From: Gammaproteobacteria bacterium
GTDB lineage: Bacteria; Pseudomonadota; Gammaproteobacteria; Ga0077536
NCBI GenBank assembly: GCA_009692265.1
Contig: SHZM01000032.1
Location: 1-40,988, forward strand
DNA length: 40,988 nt
Direction: 5' to 3'
The number at the start of each line of letters is the position of its first letter. Positions within the stretch are counted from its first letter, which is position 1. Below the pieces are notes generated by a model. It made no database searches. It was not told the DNA's origin and saw nothing but the letters and a program-made list of their open reading frames with translations. The translations under genes were made by a program, and so were the position numbers. Below, in pieces: positions 4,573 through 40,988 of the stretch.

Positions 4573-6192
4573 GTGCTGTCTGCCGCCAATGTCACCATTC
4601 AATTTGGTGCGAAACCGCTGTTCGAAAATGTCTCGGTCAAATTCGGTAACGGGTACCGTTACGGCTTGATCGGGGCCAATGGGTGTGGCAAGTCGACCTT
4701 GATGAAAATTCTCGGGAGTGATTTAAAGCCCACCGCCGGCAATGTCTCACTCGACCCGAACGAGCGGCTCGGCATTCTGCGCCAGGACCAATTCGCCTTC
4801 GAGGAATTCACGGTTCTGAACACCGTGATCATGGGGCACGCGACCTTGTGGCGGGTCAAGGAAGCACGCGAGCGCCTCTATTCGCAGGCCAGCATGAGTG
4901 AAGACGAAGGCATGCAGGTGGCTGAGCTTGAAATCCAGTTTGCCGAGCTCGACGGTTATACCTGCGAAGCGCGCGCTGGTGAATTGTTGATGGGACTGGG
5001 GATCCCAATCGAACTTCACACAGGCCCGATGAGTCAGGTGGCACCGGGTTGGAAACTGCGGGTACTGCTCGCCCAAGCACTGTTTGGCGAGCCGGATATC
5101 CTGTTACTCGATGAACCGACGAACAACCTGGATATCAACGCAATCCGCTGGCTCGAAGAAATTCTCAACGCCCGCGAATGCACTATGGTGATCGTCTCGC
5201 ACGATCGCCATTTCCTGAACAGCGTATGTACCCACATGGCGGATTTGGATTACGGCGAATTGCGCCTCTATCCGGGAAACTATGACGACTACATGACGGC
5301 CTCGACCGAAGTGCGCGAGCGCATGCTGCATAACAATGCGAAAAAGCTCACGCAGATCGAAGACCTGAAGCATTTCGTCAGTCGCTTCTCGGCGAACGCC
5401 TCGAAGGCCAAACAGGCGACTTCGCGTGCCCGCCAAATCGAAAAAATCAAACTAGAAGACGTGAAGCCCTCAAGCCGGGTCAATCCGTATATTCGATTGG
5501 AGCAAGGCAAGAAGCTGCACCGTAATGCACTGGAAGTGGAAGGCTTGGCGAAAAGCTTCGATGGCCAAACTTTGTTCAAAGGCTTGAACTTGATAATCGT
5601 GGTGGGTGATCGGGTCGCAATCATCGGCCAGAACGGGATCGGCAAGACCACGTTGTTAAACTGTCTCGAAGGCAGCGTCGTGTGCGATCGAGGATTGGTG
5701 AAGTGGTCTGAGAATTCCGAAGTCAGTTACGTTCGGCAGAACCGTACCAATGACTTCGCCGACGATATGAATTTATTCGAGTGGATGAACCAGTGGCGGC
5801 AAAAAGGCGATGACGATCAGCGGGTGCGCGCGGTACTAGGGCAATTGTTATTTTCCAAGGACGACAGCCTTAAATCGGTGAAAGTTATTTCCGGCGGCGA
5901 GGAGGCACGGATGCTGTTCGGGAGACTTATCCTGACAAAGCCGAACATCCTTTTGCTCGACGAACCGACCAACCATTTGGACATAGAGTCGATCGAGTCA
6001 CTGAATCTGGCGCTGGACAACTATGAGGGAACGCTGATTTTTGTGAGTCACGATCGAGAATTTGTGTCGTCGCTCGCAACGCGAGTTATCGAAATGACCG
6101 CGGAAGGCGTCGTCGACTTCCGCGGCACCTACGACGAGTATCTACAATCGCGCGGTTTGGAGAAGGCCGCCCCGCGCCGTGTCACTGCCTGA
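4573..6192 (+). CDS. ybiT: ABC-F ribosome-associated ATPase, YbiT type
   Basis: A soluble 539-residue protein with two ABC ATPase domains and no membrane segment, characteristic of ABC-F factors that act on the ribosomal E site during translation. Walker A motifs are GANGCGKS (about residues 34-41) and GQNGIGKT. Walker B motifs are [11 protein letters not shown] and [11 protein letters not shown]. The first domain has [12 protein letters not shown] in place of a canonical signature, as YbiT does; the second has [13 protein letters not shown]. The positively charged linker contains [19 protein letters not shown], a YbiT hallmark. The GTG at 4573 gives [12 protein letters not shown], which matches the YbiT N-terminus. 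The longer reading from the TTG at 4507 adds 22 unrelated residues. TATGAT at 4502-4507 could be a -10 box, without a clear -35. Confidence 0.93.
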
Positions 6193-6225
6193 ACTTCGCG
6201 GAGAGTCCCGCGACCGAAAGCCGCG

Positions 6226-6735
6226 CTATTCTTTGTAAGGCATCTCGCCCAGAAAGTCCTTTTTCCCGATCTCGACCCCATTGTGCCGCAGGATGGCGTA
6301 AGCAGTGATAACATGAAAATTCAGGTTCGGTATCGCGTGCTGCAACAGGAACTCCTCACCTGAAAGCCATTTTCCTTTCCAGCGCGGCGTGGTGATCCGC
6401 CGCTGCGCCGCGTCGGCGAAGTCCGCTTCGGAAAACGTGCCTAGATAAGCCATCACGTTGTTAATTCGCGATTTGAGTTCCGCCACCGTTTGTTCGGTAT
6501 CGGCGTGGGGTGGCACCTCCTGCTCTTTGTCGGCGAGTCGCGCCGCCGCGACCTTGGCGGTGTCACAGGCAATCTGGATCTGACGAATGAAATTGAATTG
6601 ATCTGGCGCGAGGCGCGCTTGTAAGAGTACTTCTACCTCGAATTTCTTCGCCTCCGCGTGCGCCGCGGCTTTGTCGAGGATCGGCACTAGGTTGCCTAGA
6701 AGCTTGCTGAACTGGACGACCATCTTGTGAATCAT
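6226..6735 (-). CDS. DUF1993 domain-containing protein
   Basis: A 169-residue soluble helical protein of the DUF1993 family, related in fold to DinB-like four-helix bundles. No biochemical function is established. It opens MIHKMVVQFSKLLGNL, the usual start of the family, so I take the ATG at 6735. The longer frame to 6798 adds a Ser-rich stretch of 21 residues that looks non-native. Conserved features are GEEFLLQHAIPNLNFHVITAYAILRHNGVEIGKKDFLG near the C-terminus, shared by most DUF1993 proteins. It converges on ybiT with a 33-bp gap and is divergent from the DUF6489-like gene. Confidence 0.85.
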   Translation of the reverse strand: MIHKMVVQFSKLLGNLVPILDKAAAHAEAKKFEVEVLLQARLAPDQFNFIRQIQIACDTAKVAAARLADKEQEVPPHADTEQTVAELKSRINNVMAYLGTFSEADFADAAQRRITTPRWKGKWLSGEEFLLQHAIPNLNFHVITAYAILRHNGVEIGKKDFLGEMPYKE

Positions 6736-6882
6736 GCTTGGTATCTCGATCTGCTGATGAAAGGAGGACGAACTATACCCGTTTATCGAGGAGACCAAGC
6801 TGGGTAGACACGTCTAGCGGCGAGCCGTCACCGGCTGTAGAGTCGGTTCTCTGTGCTCAGGCGACCTAACGAGGCTTCGAAG

Positions 6883-7155
6883 ATGAAAATCACGATCGAA
6901 ATTGACTGTACTCCGGCCGAAGCCCGCGCTGGGATGGGATTACCGGATCTAGAACCGCTTCAAGCTGAAGTGATGGCCGAGATCCAACGCCGCCTGATGC
7001 AGGCGCTCGCGACGACCGATCCGCAGCAGCTTCTGAAAACCTGGGCGCCTTGGGGTGCCCAGGGGTTAGAGGCCTTTCAATCCTTCATGCGGGCGGCAAC
7101 TGGTGGAGCGAAGAGTACCAGCAAGGACGACGCGGCTACAAAACCGCGACGTTGA
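6883..7155 (+). CDS. small DUF6489-like protein
   Basis: A 90-residue protein beginning MKITIEIDCTPAEAR, with VMAEIQRRLMQALA and a short C-terminal tail rich in Lys/Arg. The N-terminal beta strand with an acidic patch, followed by one or two amphipathic helices, resembles the small family DUF6489 found in alpha- and gammaproteobacteria. No function is known. The ATG at 6883 has GAGG at 6871-6874, 8 bases upstream; the longer frame from 6853 lacks this. The stop is only 5 bp from the stop of the convergent cyclophilin gene. Confidence 0.75.
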   Translation: MKITIEIDCTPAEARAGMGLPDLEPLQAEVMAEIQRRLMQALATTDPQQLLKTWAPWGAQGLEAFQSFMRAATGGAKSTSKDDAATKPRR

Positions 7156-7160
7156 GGGCG

Positions 7161-7874
7161 TTACTTGACTTCAATAGTCACATTCACGATGTTCAACGGC
7201 TCCGATGGAGGACCGTCGCCCGGGTTACCGGCGGCCTCGATTTTTTCGAGTACGTCCAAGCCCTCAATCACCTGTCCGAAGATCGAATAATTCATGTCAA
7301 GGCTCGGATAGGCGTTGAACATGATGAAGAACTGGCTGCCGTCTGTATTGGGGCCGGCGTTCGCGGTGGAGACGACCCCGGCTCGATCATGTTTCGTATT
7401 TGCTTCGAACTCACCCGCGAACTTGTAGCCCGGTCCGCCTGAGCCATTCCCAAGTGGATCGCCCCCCTGGGCCATGAAGCCCTGGATGACGCGATGGAAC
7501 GGTAGGCCGTCGTAGAACCCGAGTCGCGCGAGGTACATGAAATTCGTCACGTGCTGGGGCGCAATCTTGGGTTTGAACTCAATCACGAGTTCACCTTTGT
7601 TCGTGACCATGTGCGCCAAATATTTTTTTGATGCGTCGAACGTGACGATTTTGGGAAGAGACAACGAGGTCTTCCAGTCGGTTGCCGTCTTATCCACTTG
7701 CGCGGCAGCGATCTGCGCATCTATCGCGACGAACGCCGCGTCCGTCACTAACGGCGCTGTTTGTGCGGAGGCTGGCGCCGTCACCGGCGCGGTGTCCGCC
7801 GCATACGCGGCGGTACCAAGCGTTACCGCTGCGGCTAACGAGGCCGATAACGAGATCAGTTGCGAATGGTTCAT
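7161..7874 (-). CDS. peptidylprolyl isomerase, cyclophilin type, exported
   Basis: A 237-residue cyclophilin that catalyses cis-trans isomerisation of prolyl bonds, probably in the periplasm. Residues 1-25 form a signal peptide ending AYA-AD. A low-complexity Ala/Thr/Pro linker and a short extra segment (about 45-80) precede the cyclophilin domain. That domain shows FHRVIQGFMAQGGDP with the catalytic Arg, GSQFFI, and IFGQVIEGLDVLEKI at the end. The Trp that confers cyclosporin binding in some members is not present. AGGAAA lies about 10 bases before the ATG at 7874. It converges on the DUF6489-like gene and is divergent from terC. Confidence 0.95.
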   Translation of the reverse strand: MNHSQLISLSASLAAAVTLGTAAYAADTAPVTAPASAQTAPLVTDAAFVAIDAQIAAAQVDKTATDWKTSLSLPKIVTFDASKKYLAHMVTNKGELVIEFKPKIAPQHVTNFMYLARLGFYDGLPFHRVIQGFMAQGGDPLGNGSGGPGYKFAGEFEANTKHDRAGVVSTANAGPNTDGSQFFIMFNAYPSLDMNYSIFGQVIEGLDVLEKIEAAGNPGDGPPSEPLNIVNVTIEVK

Positions 7875-11814: not shown

Positions 11815-11862
11815 ACGCCGACTAAAGTCGGTTAGCTGGGGCGAATTTCTAGGAGTCCAGAA

Positions 11863-12162
11863 TTGGAAACGCGCATCAATGCGATGTGTCCCCGAGATCG
11901 TGCCTGGGTAATTTTCATTGTGACCCTGCTTTGGGTGGTCGTTGGCGTGGTCTTTTTCGGGATCGCGAGCCTTATCACCATCCCTGCCGTCAACTCTGCC
12001 TTAATCGTTTCTGGATTGCTGGTATTGATCTTTAATACAGCGTCGTCGCGAACAATGGCGCTCGCGACAGGACGTCTATACGCAGTGCGCGGGGCCTTAT
12101 TAGCGACGCGACTTTGGATGGCGATACCGCCTAATCGCGCGCCTGACATCGGTTATCGATGA
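11863..12162 (+). CDS. small membrane protein of unknown function
   Basis: A 99-residue protein with two hydrophobic segments, about residues 13-35 (AWVIFIVTLLWVVVGVVFFG) and 41-60, and a basic C-terminal half. I do not recognise a family. The TTG start is supported by AGGAG at 11851-11855, 7 bases upstream. It is the first of three very small genes on this strand; the next begins 16 bp after its stop. The antisense frame over the same span has no hydrophobic pattern and no ribosome-binding site, so this strand is preferred. Confidence 0.62.
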   Translation: METRINAMCPRDRAWVIFIVTLLWVVVGVVFFGIASLITIPAVNSALIVSGLLVLIFNTASSRTMALATGRLYAVRGALLATRLWMAIPPNRAPDIGYR

Positions 12163-15775: not shown

Positions 15776-16747
15776 ATGATCACAGCGTATTGCGTGGGCA
15801 ATGAGCATCTTTCCAGTCACCACGGCTTCGTCACCGCGGAGCATTTTCAAAAAGCGACCTGGATAGATTTATTCGAACCTAGCATGGAAGAGGAGCACCA
15901 TCTTGAGGGGCTCCTGGCGCTGGAACTCCCCACGCGCGAAGAAATGCGCGCGATCGAGGATTCGATCAGACTTTATGAGAGCAACGGCGCGGTCTATTTG
16001 ACAGCGAAGGTTATGGTCAACTCGGAATCGGAGTATCCGAGGTTGGACGACCTGACGTTCGTGCTGACCGCGAGGTGTTTAGTCACGGTGCGTTATGCCG
16101 AGCCTAAAGCGGTACGCTTATTCGCCAGTCGGGCCGAGCACCAACCCTCGGCGTGTGTAAATAGTGAAAACGTCTTGTTGGGTCTGCTTGGGGCCTTGCT
16201 GGAACGGATCGCCGATAGCATCGGGCGGGTGGGGAGCGATCTTGATGACCTGGTGCATCAAGTCCTGGCCCCGGATGAGACGCGTCGCAGGCTCGATTAC
16301 ACCGCGTTGCTGCGCCAGTTGGAATGCAAGCAGATTCTGATTGCGCGCGCCCGCGGCAGCCTAGCGAGCCTTAATCGGCTGGTCAGTTTCGTGAGTAAAC
16401 CGGCGCTGGAATACCAATTGTCGAAAAGCTTCAAGCCACGCGCAACGACCCTCCTGCACGACATCCAATCGTTAGTCGACCACACCGCTTTCCTCGCCAA
16501 TAACATCAGCTTCGAACTCGCCGCGATCCTCGGCATGATCAATGTTGAACAGAACGGGATCATTAAGATCTTCTCGGTCGCCGCGGTTGTGTTTATGCCG
16601 CCGACGCTGGTCGCCAGCATCTACGGCATGAATTTCGACGTCATGCCAGAGCTTAAACTTGGTTTCGGTTATCCACTTGCGTTGGGCTTGATGGTGGCCT
16701 CGGCGATCGTGACTTACTGGATGTTTAAGCGCAGAGGGTGGTTGTAG
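15776..16747 (+). CDS. corA: magnesium/cobalt transporter CorA
   Basis: A 323-residue pentameric divalent-cation channel of the inner membrane. A large cytoplasmic alpha/beta domain occupies residues 1-260. Two C-terminal membrane helices follow, with the selectivity motif YGMNFDVMPE at the end of the first and a basic KRRGWL tail. The N-terminus MITAYCVGNEHL is typical of CorA, so I start at the ATG at 15776. The 58 residues upstream in frame are basic and unrelated. An extracellular MPEL follows GMN, as in the Mg2+-transporting branch rather than ZntB. It is divergent from the VWA gene across 162 bp. The SGNH hydrolase gene begins 4 bp after the stop. Confidence 0.94.
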   Translation: MITAYCVGNEHLSSHHGFVTAEHFQKATWIDLFEPSMEEEHHLEGLLALELPTREEMRAIEDSIRLYESNGAVYLTAKVMVNSESEYPRLDDLTFVLTARCLVTVRYAEPKAVRLFASRAEHQPSACVNSENVLLGLLGALLERIADSIGRVGSDLDDLVHQVLAPDETRRRLDYTALLRQLECKQILIARARGSLASLNRLVSFVSKPALEYQLSKSFKPRATTLLHDIQSLVDHTAFLANNISFELAAILGMINVEQNGIIKIFSVAAVVFMPPTLVASIYGMNFDVMPELKLGFGYPLALGLMVASAIVTYWMFKRRGWL

Positions 16748-16751
16748 CGAC

Positions 16752-17393
16752 GTGAGGAATACTGGCGTGGCACCCACCGCAAAATCGACAGCCGCCAGAG
16801 TTGTTCTGGCGCTGTGCTGCCTACTCGCGGCCACCGGCTGCGGTGAGGGTGTGCCGCGGCTAGCACCGCTGGGTGAGGAGGAGGTGGTCGTTGCGTTCGG
16901 CGACAGTCTGTTTGGCACCGGTGCGACCGCCGCTGAAAGTTATCCGGCTGTGCTTGAACGGTTGATCGGACGTACGGTAGTCAAAGCGGGTGTCCCCGGC
17001 GAAGTGACAGAAGCCGGCCTCGCGCGCCTTGAATCGATCATCGACGAGCACGAACCGAAATTAATGATCGTTTGCCTGGGTGGTAACGACATGCTGCGCA
17101 AACTCAATGCGGCTGCGACTAAATCAAACTTGCGTGCAATAGTCACGGCGATCCAGGCGCGAGGGATCGGGGTGGTGCTTGTTGGCGTGCCAACGCCCGC
17201 GCTATTCACCGGCACTGCGCCATTCTACGAAGAAATTGCGGAGGAACTTGGGATTCCGTACGAAGGCGAAATCATCGACGATGTGTTAAGTCAGGCCGAT
17301 CAGAAATCCGATCCGATCCATCCCAATGCGCAAGGCTATCGGCGGATCGCCGAAGCGATAGCGGCGCTGCTGAAAAAGACGGGCGCGTTGTAG
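16752..17393 (+). CDS. SGNH/GDSL hydrolase lipoprotein (arylesterase/TesA-like)
   Basis: A 213-residue esterase or lysophospholipase of the SGNH superfamily. Residues 1-31 look like a lipoprotein signal with lipobox AATGC, so the mature enzyme would be attached to a membrane in the periplasm. Block I is GDSLFGTG with the nucleophile Ser near residue 51. Gly (block II) lies in AGVPGE, block III is GGND, and the C-terminal DPIHPN carries the Asp-His pair. GTG start at 16752, 4 bp after corA, with no strong Shine-Dalgarno; translation may be coupled to corA. The 3' end is followed by a long imperfect palindrome at 17428. Confidence 0.93.
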   Translation: MRNTGVAPTAKSTAARVVLALCCLLAATGCGEGVPRLAPLGEEEVVVAFGDSLFGTGATAAESYPAVLERLIGRTVVKAGVPGEVTEAGLARLESIIDEHEPKLMIVCLGGNDMLRKLNAAATKSNLRAIVTAIQARGIGVVLVGVPTPALFTGTAPFYEEIAEELGIPYEGEIIDDVLSQADQKSDPIHPNAQGYRRIAEAIAALLKKTGAL

Positions 17394-33054: not shown

Positions 33055-33588
33055 ATGCCAGCCATTGAGGCTCTCTTTATCGACGAAGTGCCCTCGCCGA
33101 CGGGTACGCTGTTCGTCGTCTTTGATGCCGAGGCTAACCTTCGGGCGATTGACTGGACCGATTATGAGGCGCGGATGCTCCGCTTGCTGCGACTCCATTA
33201 CGGCACGGACGGAATCGGGTATTGCCTGCGACGGCAGGCCCTGCCGCTGGCGAGCCGTCGTGCCTTTGACGCGTATTTCGCTGGCGAGCTGCGGGCGCTG
33301 GAACATTTGGCGGTGCGGACCAATGGCACGGAATTCCAGCGCGAAGTCTGGCGCGCGCTCCGCACCATCCCACCGGGTACCACCATGAGCTACGGCGCGC
33401 TCGCGGCCAGGCTCGGTCGCCCGAAAGCCGTGCGCGCCGTGGGTCTTGCGAACGGCGCTAATCCGATCGGCATCGTGGTGCCGTGCCATCGGGTAATCGG
33501 GGCCAATGGCGCGCTAACCGGTTACGGCGGCGGCTTGGAGCGCAAGCGCTGGCTGCTTGTACATGAAGGCGTTCTTCTGGATCTTTGA
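33055..33588 (+). CDS. ogt: methylated-DNA--protein-cysteine methyltransferase (Ogt)
   Basis: A 177-residue suicide repair protein that takes O6-alkyl groups from guanine onto its active Cys. The motif [26 protein letters not shown] has the acceptor Cys144. [22 protein letters not shown] is the DNA-binding helix-turn-helix, and the Arg finger is the Arg in KAVRAVG. The N-terminal ribonuclease-H-like domain is about 85 residues. The ATG at 33055 follows the alkA stop by 4 bp. It is the constitutive Ogt type, without the Ada regulatory domain. Confidence 0.95.
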
Positions 33589-33589
33589 T

Positions 33590-33910
33590 ATGCGACAGTG
33601 GCATCTCTACGTGCTGCGGACTCGATACGGCGCGCTCTACACCGGGATCACCACCGATGTCGCGCGCCGGCTTAATCAACACGGGGCCGGTACCGGTGCA
33701 AAAGCACTCCGTTCGCGCGGGCCTCTCGCGTTGGTTTATCAAGTCCCTATCGGGAGTCGCGGTTCGGCCTTGCGCGCCGAACTCGCCGTGAAGAAGCTGC
33801 CGAAAGCGCGCAAAGAAGCGTTGGTAATCGCGCAGCCCGACGGACCGACCTTGTGCGCGCGGCTGCACGTGCCAGCTGAGTATCGCCCAAAAGGTGTCAG
33901 CGGGCGATGA
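33590..33910 (+). CDS. GIY-YIG endonuclease domain protein (YhbQ/UPF0213-like)
   Basis: A 106-residue single-domain GIY-YIG protein. [28 protein letters not shown] holds the two motif strands (LYV for GIY and YTG for YIG), the Arg of RRLNQH and its His. The catalytic-type Glu is in [11 protein letters not shown]. YhbQ-type proteins are thought to nick or bind damaged or branched DNA. The ATG at 33590 comes 1 base after the ogt stop, so it ends the LLM-LLM-alkA-ogt operon. Its 3' end overlaps the convergent LLM gene by 14 bp. An in-frame start at 33557 inside ogt is less likely. Confidence 0.9.
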
Positions 33911-34973
33911 CACCCATCTCCCGCAACAGAGGCATCACTTCCGTCTGAAAGCGCAACGTATCGCGATGGTAAGCCTGAAACACCATCAATACGCCATCCA
34001 AGCCGACGTCGTGCAAAGCTTTGAGTTTTACCGCGACGTCCTCCGCGGTGCCGACAAGCGGAAAAGCGCCGGCACCGAGGGTCATCATGTCCAAGGTGAA
34101 TTGATCAAACGATCCGCTTTGTAAGTTCAAACCATTCAGCCAATTGCTACTCGCCACCGTATCTTTATGCGCGATGATTTTGTCGATCTCGGCCTGGGCT
34201 TCGTCCGCGCTGTCGCGCCACAGCACGAACGGAAAGCCAGCGCAACGAACGTCGCGACCACGCGCATGACCAAGCGTCTTGATATCGGCCACGGTTGCGT
34301 GCGCGGACGCGATCGAGAACATGCTGATGAAAGCCCAATCGCAATGCTCGGCGATGATCGCTTTCGCATCAGCCGAAATCCCGGCGTTGACGATCGGCGG
34401 ATGCGGTTGCTGTACGGGCTGGGGCAACGAATAACCACCCCTGATGGTGTACCAGGGAGAATCATAATTAAAACACCCCGGGGCTTGCGTCCAGAGGCCT
34501 TTCAGGACTTCGATGAACGCTTTGGTGCGCTGATAGCGTTCGGCGTGCGGCAGCAAGTCGATCCCCATCATCCCGAATTCGTCCTTGCTCCAGCCGCTGA
34601 CTAAGTTGACCCCCCACCGACCCTGGCCTATGTGGTCCAGCGTCGCGCCCATCTTCGCTACGACCAGCGGGTGAAACGCCGGCACATGAACGGTCGAATA
34701 CACGCGAATTTTCGTCGTCACGGCGAGCAGGGCCGAGGCCCACGTCATGGTCTCCAGCGAGGTACCGAGATAATCGGTGTCGCCACCGAATCCGCGCCAT
34801 CTGCTCACTGGAAACAGAAAATCAAAGCCGGCGGCTTCGGCCGCCAGCGCGATGCGTTTATTTGATTCGTAATCCCACTCGTCAGGCACCGCGCGATAGG
34901 TGCTGATAGCAGACATATTGCTGCAATTAGGCATGAACAAGCCGAGTTGGAGGCTGTCGGGTTGATCGTTCAT
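33897..34973 (-). CDS. LLM class flavin-dependent monooxygenase, RutA/SfnG-like
   Basis: A 358-residue FMN-dependent monooxygenase related to RutA (pyrimidine ring opening) and SfnG (dimethylsulfone). Shared signatures are LGLFMPN near the start, [75 protein letters not shown] and [15 protein letters not shown]. The rest of the rut or sfn operons is absent, so the substrate may differ. I start at the ATG at 34973, which has AGGAAAG upstream; the frame extends to 35027 with an unlikely N-terminus. It converges on the GIY-YIG gene, overlapping by 14 bp, and is divergent from the decarboxylase gene. Confidence 0.91.
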
Positions 34974-35181
34974 CTCTGGGGCTTTCCTAAGTTCTAAGCT
35001 AAAACGCGACTTTGATCCGATACCCAAGCGGGTTGAGTCTTCGGTTCTTCGTCACTCGCCGACAATTTCTACCGAATCGACACGTTGAATGATACGGTGT
35101 CCATGGCGGCGGCCGATATCCACGGTAGTGATCTCCGGAATCCTAGACGGCGCGATAAACCAAGACAGCGAGTTCAGCGCG

Positions 35182-36750: not shown

Positions 36751-37724
36751 TTATTGGTCGTTATTATCCGAGCCCGACGTCACAGGCTCGCGGGGCATGC
36801 TCGCGCCGATATGTGCTTGACCTCGGCTCTCGGCGAGTGCTACTTGGCGTCCCCGCTCGGCGAAGCTGCGGCGTTGTTCGTCAGTTAACTGGTCGTGACA
36901 ATACGCGCAGCTCTGCGCGTGAAGATAGAGCGGTGAGTTTCGATCGGCGGGACTTAACGGCCGCCGACACGCGAAGCACAGAGTGTGCTCGCCGACGGCG
37001 AGCGCGGCGTCGAGCGCGACGCGGGAATCGAACACGAAACATTCGCCCTGCCAGCGCGAGGTGCGTCCTCGAGGTAGGCCAGGATGCCGCCGGCGAGTTG
37101 ATAGACTTCGTCGCAACCGCGTTCAAGCAGGTAGGCGCTGGCCTTCTCGCAGCGTATTCCGCCAGTGCAGAACATCGCCACGCGCCGCGATTGGCGGCGC
37201 GCCAATTCGGCGTCAATCAAGGCGGGAAACTCCCGAAAATGCTGCATCCCGAAATCGACCGCGCCAGTGAAAGTGCCGACTTGGTGTTCATAGCTGTTGC
37301 GCGCATCGATTAACAGGATATCGGGATCGCTGATCAGAACATCCCACTGTGCTGGGGGCACTGGCGTGCCGGTGGCGAGTGCAGGCGCGATACCCGCCAC
37401 GCCCATGCTGACGATTTCACGTTTGTACTTAACTTTAAGGCGCCGGAACGGTGCCGCCGCATGGAAGGACTCGCGTACGTCGCTGAGTGTTGCGAAGCCA
37501 GGCTGCGCGCGAAGATAGGCCATAAAAGCAGTAACCGACCGCGAGCTGCCGGCAATGCTCGCATTGAGGCCTTCCTCGGCCAGCAGCAGGGTTCCGCGCA
37601 GGCCTGCTTCACGCGCGTATGTGCCCAGGTTGGTGCCAAGGACGCGCGGTTCCAGCAGGGTGACGAATTTATAGAATGACGTGACCGTCACGTGCGGTGG
37701 GTTAGGTGTGGCGAGTGAAGCCAT
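36751..37724 (-). pseudogene. trhO: tRNA uridine(34) hydroxylase TrhO (YceA), frameshifted
   Basis: TrhO hydroxylates U34 of tRNA to ho5U. The first frame (from the ATG at 37724) encodes 222 good residues: an N-terminal domain, then a rhodanese domain with catalytic Cys186 in FCTGGIRCEK, up to GGILAYLEDAP. The remaining 102 residues, SRWQGECFVFDSR with Cys motifs CFACRRP and CAYCHD and the ending QAHIGAS, lie in another frame from about 37059 to the stop at 36751. The join near 37059-37064 needs a -1 shift, equal to a small net deletion in the loop before SRW. No slippery heptamer is present. Both halves are otherwise intact, so the lesion is recent or a sequence error. Divergent from cmoB. 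Confidence 0.85.
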
Positions 37725-37822
37725 CGAGAGTTACCCTGACGAAAGGACGTTGTTCTGAGTTGAAAAAATTCATGGCATGCCCGCTGCTGGGCAAGCCAAC
37801 GGGATCATCGCATGATCAACCA

Positions 37823-38825
37823 ATGAACCATACGCCGCTCGCCGCGTTTATAGATCGCAACATTCACGACCTCGCTACCATCTTCGACGAACACTCGGCA
37901 CAGGCGCGCCCTTGGCTCGCGACAGTCCTGCCACGGGCACAGGCCACGGTCACCCGGGATGGCCGCGTCCCTGCACTGGAAGTGGCGCTCGCCGCATTGC
38001 CGGCGGTGGAGGCTGACGCGTACGCGCTCGGCGCGACCGTAGGGGCAGTGGGCCGCTGCGAGGAACCGCGGCGCGCTCAGCTGGAGGCGGCGCTAAAAGC
38101 GCTGTTGCCGTGGCGGAAGGGACCCTTCGACTTGTTTGGCGTTCAGATCGACGCTGAATGGCGTAGTGATTGGAAATGGGCGCGCGTGGCGCCCCAGTTA
38201 GCGCCGTTGACTGATCGCCGCGTGCTGAACGTCGGCTGTGGCAATGGCTATTACCTGTGGCGAATGGTTGAAGCCGGCGCGCGGTTTGCGCTCGGTCTTG
38301 ATTCGTCATTGTCGGCCTTGGCTCAGTTCGCGGCGCTGCGTTGTTATCTGCCTGCCCCGAAGGTTTTCATGGTGCCACTCGCGAGCGCCGATCTCGGCGC
38401 TGAGTCGGGGATTACCGGCGGCTTCGACACGGTGTTTTCCATTGGGGGTGCTTTACCATCGTCGCGAACCGCGCTCGCACCTGCGCGAGCTGCGGGGCGC
38501 GCTGCGTGCAGGCGGACAATTAGTGCTCGAAACGCTGATACTCGATCAAGGTCACACCGAATTCCCCATGCCGGCGCGCTATTGCGGGATGCGCAATGTC
38601 TGGGCGCTACCGCCGCCATGCGTGGTGGAAGAGTGGCTCGCCCACGCGGATTTCTGCAATGTGCAGGTGGTCGATATCACCCGGACTACGGTGGAGGAGC
38701 AACGCGCCACGGCCTGGATGCCAACCTACTCGCTCGCCGACTTTCTCGATCCGCGGGATCGCTCCCGCACGGTAGAAGGCTTGCCGGCACCGGTGCGCGC
38801 GGTGTTCATTGCCAACGCGTGCTGA
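37823..38825 (+). pseudogene. cmoB: tRNA U34 carboxymethyltransferase CmoB, frameshifted
   Basis: CmoB uses carboxy-SAM to turn ho5U34 into cmo5U34. Frame 1 from the ATG at 37823 gives 208 residues, with LPWRKGPFDLFG, the invariant EWRSDWKW and the SAM site VLNVGCGNGYYLWRM (Asn for the usual Asp), ending FDTVFSIG. The true continuation VLYHRREPRSHL...LVLETL...YCGMRNVW...SLADFLDP is one frame over and stops at 38825. The shift is one extra G in a five-G run at 38444-38448; four Gs would restore a 333-residue protein. The frame-1 tail to 38875 is junk. The original ATG has no strong ribosome-binding site. No cmoA is nearby. Confidence 0.88.
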
Positions 38826-38849
38826 TTCTACCCCAGCGGCAGCTCGACA

Positions 38850-39100
38850 CTGTTGAACCTGGAAACGGCAGTTGACCGCTGATGATCGTAAGTAAGTTCA
38901 TGAACAATTAGGGTTTTGTCGTTCAATCTGGCGTCACCTTATGGGTGAAGGCGCTACGCCGCACGCAGCGCGTCCTCTGGCGCGCATGGTGGCGTTGCAA
39001 CTCGGAGGATGTGCTGGCTATTCCTCCTCATTGCGCCTTGCCCTGCACCCCAGGGAACACACTGCACGCGGCGTTCAACCGCCGTTTCTAGGTTGAACAG
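38850..39100. mobile_element. 251-bp element bounded by inverted repeats, MITE-like or IS remnant
   Basis: The ends 38852-38881 and 39069-39098 match 25 of 30 bases as an inverted repeat (AACGGC core), extending two bases further outward. The right end also holds GTTCAACC/GGTTGAAC (39073-39080 and 39091-39098), an 8-bp dyad with a 10-base loop. Inside is a TCACC/GGTGA hairpin near 38936-38950 and very GC-rich sequence, but no ORF. No clear target duplication flanks it. It fills most of the 374-bp gap between the cmoB remnant and the monooxygenase gene, where nothing else is seen. It could be a miniature or internally deleted insertion sequence. Confidence 0.55.
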
Positions 39101-40837: not shown

Positions 40838-40952
40838 GCGGCTCTTCCGGTTTGAGTGTGGGTAAAAAGAGGTTGTTGCTCAAGCAGCGAGGCCTATTTT
40901 CATAGGGTTTAATGCCTGTTTGAGGTGAGGATAAATCCGGCATGATTTGCCG

Positions 40953-40988
40953 ATGGCTAAAATACCGAAGCACCGCCACTTGGCCGAT
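40953..40988 (+). CDS. 5' fragment of an ORF cut by the window edge
   Basis: Twelve codons, MAKIPKHRHLAD, run to the edge. This resembles, from memory, the beginning of short ORFs that accompany some insertion sequences in proteobacteria. The region just upstream has AT-rich tracts and a CCTA/TAGG hairpin, unlike the neighbouring coding DNA. No ribosome-binding site is close to the ATG; GTGAGG lies about 24 bases upstream. A different frame from ATG 40942 is also open. Confidence 0.28.
   Translation, partial: MAKIPKHRHLAD

Follow-up and report, generated by a model that had tools for sequence, protein, structure and literature searches.

The stretch of DNA analysed here (the window, 40,988 nucleotides) is contig 70 of a gammaproteobacterial assembly, G000, of 3.41 Mb in 118 contigs (94.99% complete, 0.06% contaminated). 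At 36751-38825 it carries trhO on the minus strand and cmoB on the plus strand, which diverge from each other and are each split once between two reading frames. Both belong to the ho5U34/cmo5U34 pathway: TrhO hydroxylates tRNA U34 (giving ho5U34), and CmoB transfers a carboxymethyl group from the carboxy-SAM that CmoA makes. The trhO ATG at 37724 and the likely cmoB ATG at 37823 leave 98 bp between the starts, just as an earlier note on this DNA had described the back-to-back pair, and no match to a sigma-70-type promoter was found in this intergenic region. The features of the locus are:

36751 to 37059, minus strand: displaced C-terminal part of trhO, with the WQGECFVFD segment and the four-cysteine tail (NF003703 positions 220-276, NF001133 positions 210-228)
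36954 to 37724, minus strand: first frame of trhO, 256 aa (NF001133 positions 1-211, 237.9 bits; PF17773, PF00581; translation)
37059 to 37060, minus strand: junction of the 10-bp gap in trhO (nucleotide alignment against 10 of 10 intact homologues)
37725 to 37822, no strand: intergenic region of 98 bp between the divergent starts (from the sequence)
37823 to 38440, plus strand: N-terminal two thirds of cmoB, including PWRKGP and the SAM-binding motif (TIGR00452 positions 10-192)
38441 to 38443, plus strand: site of the +1 shift in cmoB, in the FSMGVLYHR segment (alignment with 12 relatives; frame switch of a codon-usage HMM at 38443)
38444 to 38825, plus strand: displaced C-terminal third of cmoB (TIGR00452 positions 187-316; PDB CmoB chains 4p7c, 4qnu and 7ct8)

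The first trhO frame contains the UPF0176_N (PF17773) and rhodanese (PF00581) domains and the CTGGIRC loop, and its score lies above the NF001133 cut-off of 170 bits. In this frame, conserved sequence stops at about 37060 and the remainder is an out-of-frame tail. No continuous frame leads to the WxGECFVFD segment and the C-terminal part; the segment sits in another frame (36751-37116, minus strand) that continues the model at positions 210-228, and the displaced part is 70-74% identical to its counterparts in G018 and G024 over 89 aa. The break itself is a gap of 10 bp at 37059/37060, found in none of the 10 aligned homologues (10 of the 17 trhO genes from other genomes, G023, G017, G028, G009, G027, G034 and G036 being left out). 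Thus, a base-calling error in trhO is very unlikely. At the gap site, the two nearest relatives, G018 and G024, carry the tetramer CGCG twice, 10 bp apart, which the other eight do not, and this pattern suggests that the gap arose by slippage. Since the catalytic loop lies upstream of the break, TrhO may be impaired rather than dead. In fact, natural TrhO frames as short as 266-289 aa occur in G027, G028, G034, G036 and G009.

The two cmoB frames, 37706-38875 and 38238-38825 (both plus strand), match TIGR00452 over positions 10-192 with 173.7 bits and over 187-316 with 167.7 bits, each below the cut-off of 275 bits. All 12 aligned relatives (of 16 genes over the cut-off; G027, G017, G023 and G009 were left out) keep one frame through FSMGVLYHR, where the window has one extra base. 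The earlier note had counted one frameshift per gene and placed this one in the run of five G at 38444-38448. There is indeed one split in each gene, but the trhO event is a 10-bp gap and not a single base, and the extra cmoB base lies in the codon before the run, at about 38441-38443. A homopolymer error in the G5 run was rejected because relatives (G024, G019, G026, G021) carry the same run in frame. Taken by itself, the single-base cmoB break could be an error. Alignment to solved CmoB chains puts the split at E. coli Met196-Gly197, whose backbones touch carboxy-SAM according to Kim et al. 2015 (PMC4482062); the same study reports Y200A alone and R315A alone as still active in vivo, and K91A as not. 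In the window the carboxy-SAM residues (equivalents of E. coli Lys91, Met196-Gly197, Tyr200 and Arg315) do not stand in one frame, which is lost at FS-MGVLYHR.

How old are these breaks? At sites invariant in the aligned relatives, cmoB keeps 71 of 73 residues (32/34 before the break, 39/39 after it) and trhO 70 of 73 (50/53 and 20/20), so that the halves are otherwise conserved, as had been claimed; the two changed sites of cmoB and the three of trhO all fall in the N-terminal halves. Leave-one-out values for the relatives run from 74/74 to 74/81 for cmoB and from 73/73 to 73/78 for trhO, and the window's values lie close to these ranges. Relative-rate comparisons exceeded 3.84 in 0 of 16 cases for trhO and in 6 of 27 for cmoB, a weak acceleration only. 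Displaced halves that are fully conserved at invariant sites, combined with weak or null rate tests, indicate that the breaks are young, and the same observations speak against long-standing decay.

The contig is not misbinned. Upstream of the pair, PIG3, LLM1, LLM2, the gene at 33897-35027 and a lysA-like gene follow the same order in the congener G005 with 68-83% protein identity, which places the window within the genus. Between these flank genes alkA, ogt and 33557-33910 were not found in G005, and no trhO- or cmoB-like gene follows them in the 17.5 kb examined there, so G005 lacks the pair at this position. In the assembly itself, at least eight contig ends of G000 stop inside one short repeat, which would be the pattern of short-read assemblies, where homopolymer errors are rare. 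The window also ends in this repeat (40838-40988, shared with the ends of at least eight other G000 contigs), which recurs at about 84% identity in contig ends of G005 and whose terminus, GGCTCTTCCGG, we take to resemble ISL3-type termini. A second repeat, a MITE-like element of 251 bp with 30-nt terminal inverted repeats (87%), occupies 38850-39100 and starts 24 bp after the cmoB stop. At least 18 further sites in G000 match it, as do many in G003, and its folding is much better than that of shuffled sequences (z -4.1).

Broken genes are not confined to this pair. Among 33 other window genes scanned with NCBIfam (33557-33910, 33897-35027 and 11832-12149 being left out), matches at E<=1e-25 were obtained for 20, none of them split across frames; two of the 20, a VWA-type gene and a stand-alone CinA C-terminal domain, match part of a model only. 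A codon-usage frameshift HMM calls the cmoB switch at 38443 and misses the trhO break. Its sensitivity in a control with random one-base changes was 30/135, so that its census is a rough lower bound. At the strict setting it raised six other flags in 298 kb of G000. Two of them mark gene overlaps (rnhB/dnaE and lpxD/fabZ), another two seem to be genuine breaks (L103:6364 and L081:16651), and the last two lie at L082:8308 and L093:18039. The L103 case (5531-7685) is a guanylate-cyclase/AAA_16 gene split between two frames (profile positions 1-90 and 99-166); the L081 case (16459-17221) is a hydantoinase A remnant covering model positions 140-311 of 689. When the low sensitivity is corrected for, broken genes may amount to a few per cent of the total, and a genome this large is then expected to hold some pairs of them by chance. 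We therefore rejected the adjacency of two broken genes, taken alone, as strong evidence.

The rest of the pathway was sought in the same genome. No second strong trhO or cmoB match was found in the 118 contigs of G000 (3.41 Mb, 94.99% complete), where the searches otherwise returned general methyltransferases (28.9-30 bits) and small rhodaneses (20-40 bits); full-length homologues elsewhere, which the earlier note had named as a refutation, were thus not found. It had also proposed looking for cmoA: even at E<=10, only a partial match of 20.3 bits over positions 53-116 was detected in this assembly. CmoB would thus be left without a source of carboxy-SAM, unless cmoA sits in the missing 5% or so of the assembly, as it may. 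A U32-family (TrhP-type) gene, PF01136, was found in none of eight genomes (G000 and seven relatives), while the control search matched in 8 of 14 genomes. Thus, no known ho5U34 enzyme other than TrhO was found in G000, which leaves no backup route.

What would the loss mean for decoding? According to PMC6599085, E. coli without trhP and trhO grows more slowly and decodes G-ending codons less well, most of all when the CNN isodecoder is missing too. In G000, 37 of 40 matched tRNA genes were typed; they include CNN anticodons for Ala, Pro, Thr, Ser and Val (five of the six relevant boxes) and GNN anticodons for Ala, Pro, Thr and Val. Leu CAG, Leu GAG and Ser GGA are not among the 37 typed tRNAs, nor is Pro UGG, which was seen in a tRNA cluster of G005. 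Since most boxes have CNN and GNN isoacceptors, the cell can probably tolerate the loss, and we expect no strong change in decoding; going by this tRNA set, other isoacceptors probably buffer the effects. The altered reading of G- and U-ending codons that the earlier note foresaw would thus probably be small.

Relatives show the pathway in several states. Within the genus, one of five congeners (G003) has a strong cmoB match, four have none, and trhO is found at E<=1e-15 in none of the five; the G003 contig stops directly after its cmoA, and its trhO may lie beyond that end. Of 36 family genomes, 12 (the window's included) have both genes, 20 have neither and four have one only (cmoB in G003 and G010, trhO in G014 and G049). 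The genes are associated by Fisher's test with kinship ignored (P 5.6e-6 with the window's genome, 1.2e-5 without). A contig end of G010 shows the first 65 residues of trhO, so this genome probably carries both genes. Wherever another genome has both (11 of 11), they share a contig and sit within about 2 kb. Intact genes in sister genomes, which the earlier note had named as a refutation, do exist in other genera (among the 35 other genomes of the family, 13 have cmoB over its cut-off), but as different species they leave a recent loss here unrefuted. The nearest, G018 and G024, are 68-69% identical in trhO (296 columns) and 58-59% in cmoB (316 columns). A scan of named genomes kept 80 loci at 44-54% identity, none of which comes from a close relative. 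A cmoA-like gene lies between trhO and cmoB in 8 of 40 relatives (G007, G009, G011, G012, G017, G019, G021 and G023); G018 and G024 have none there, like the window. These cmoB-linked genes (L052-L060) stay below the TIGR00740 cut-off and have an altered FKRxNGYS...QKR region (FKL/YKL...AKTR), so we call them putative carboxy-SAM makers.

To explain these results we propose that in one gammaproteobacterial species the oxygen-dependent ho5U34/cmo5U34 pathway has recently undergone a real, joint loss, which we consider probable. The intact relatives have divergent trhO and cmoB and often a cmoA-like gene between them. The +1 shift, at the site of carboxy-SAM contact in the E. coli enzyme, would have cost CmoB its C-terminal third, and the 10-bp deletion would have cost TrhO its C-terminal part. 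We infer that both breaks are present in the living cell, that function is abolished or impaired and that cmo5U34 is absent, an unmodified state that would be tolerated since GNN and CNN tRNAs cover the codons. Joint loss is favoured because the trhO gap is not a base-call error, because neither cmoA nor a U32 gene was found, and because the two genes are lost together in relatives. The missing partners and the absence of the pair from most relatives fit what the earlier note had proposed; its causal order, in which one step is lost and the other then decays, is plausible. Against joint loss, the sequences bear no sign of long relaxation, so that two independent young breaks would be needed, and broken genes are not rare in G000.

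Part of the pathway could have survived. If cmoB (and cmoA) were gone while the truncated TrhO still hydroxylated U34, ho5U34 would be the end product. The CTGGIR loop and the N-terminal domain do lie upstream of the trhO break, in a frame that clears the TrhO equivalog cut-off (237.9 against 170 bits), and short natural TrhO frames exist among relatives; moreover, the loop residues C200, T201, G203 and R205 are essential in E. coli TrhO, according to PMC6599085. Yet the missing WxGECFVFD segment falls inside NF001133 (210-228) and is present in 10 of 10 aligned homologues, and 31 foreign residues stand in place of the lost segment, which makes partial loss rather unlikely in our judgement. 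An assembly or sequencing error in one or both genes, with the pathway unit intact, could draw on the single base of the cmoB shift and on the perfect conservation of the displaced halves at invariant sites. It does not account for a gap of 10 bp, for the absence of splits in the 20 other informative genes of the window or for the missing cmoA. We regard such an error as improbable, and as for the suggestion that both breaks are errors, the trhO gap speaks against it. That the full enzymes are still made, by programmed frameshifting or as two-part proteins, could be read from the conservation of both displaced halves. This is most improbable: no gene is split in the aligned relatives (10 for trhO, 12 for cmoB), a 10-bp deletion is not a recoding signal, and cmoA is missing here too.

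The search for cmoA turned up a second gene group. The cmoA-like genes over the TIGR00740 cut-off in G001, G005, G008, G022, G010, G018, G024 and G032 form one group, 62-72% identical to the G001 protein and 28-39% to other cmoA genes. At all eight loci (L097:8324-9851, L098:2690-4232, L099:7266-9015, L100:6298-7942 and L102:7727-9120; also L043, L044 and L045) a gene of about 250 aa directly adjoins this paralogue. The three neighbours scanned all match PF04191, phospholipid methyltransferase, and one weakly matches solved isoprenylcysteine methyltransferases (PEMT/ICMT-like). The FKRxNGYSxxEIxxKRxxLENV region known from solved CmoA is retained in the paralogue, except that G008 and G022 have the R of FKR changed. 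No strong cmoB was found in five of the eight genomes (G001, G005, G008, G022, G032). Judged from gene neighbourhood and family matches, carboxy-SAM may serve membrane carboxymethylation through the PEMT/ICMT-like partner. We very tentatively envision, while holding it to be unlikely, that carboxy-SAM changed employer in this family: the trhO-cmoB tRNA branch would be in the course of being lost while the paralogue feeds a putative membrane carboxymethylation, and the window's species would represent a late stage, with the tRNA branch broken and both kinds of cmoA gone.

Two consecutive wobble-modification enzymes, both broken and still almost fully conserved, thus stand in a family that allows one pathway to be compared when intact, when broken and when absent. 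The case supports the view that maintenance of trhO depends on cmoB where no TrhP exists. It is also a warning for annotation, as a TrhO model score above the cut-off can hide a truncated gene.

With E. coli TrhO (YceA; Sakai et al. 2019, PMC6599085) the window's gene shares the UPF0176_N and rhodanese domains, the CTGGIR loop and cmoB as a partner; it differs in that its C-terminal part is displaced by the 10-bp gap and in that G000 has no TrhP-type gene. The cmoB product belongs to the same family as E. coli CmoB (PDB 4qnu; PMC4482062), with PWRKGP and the SAM-binding motifs in the first frame, whereas from Met196-Gly197 on the C-terminal third is out of frame, and with it the residues that correspond to Tyr200 and Arg315. 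The divergent trhO/cmoB of genus g6 (G018 and G024) and the [trhO-cmoA]/cmoB clusters of g3, g5, g7 and g8 have the same layout and are intact; the g6 genomes carry the cmoA paralogue elsewhere, whereas none was detected in G000. We found no published loss of the trhO/cmoB pair in the open-access literature. Genes for tRNA modification are reportedly lost in reducing genomes, for example in Mollicutes (PMC4014445). The loss described here likewise concerns a non-essential tRNA modification pathway, but in a genome of 3.4 Mb where both genes can still be recognised. Events of this kind are known and the case is new; the understanding of the pathway is unchanged.
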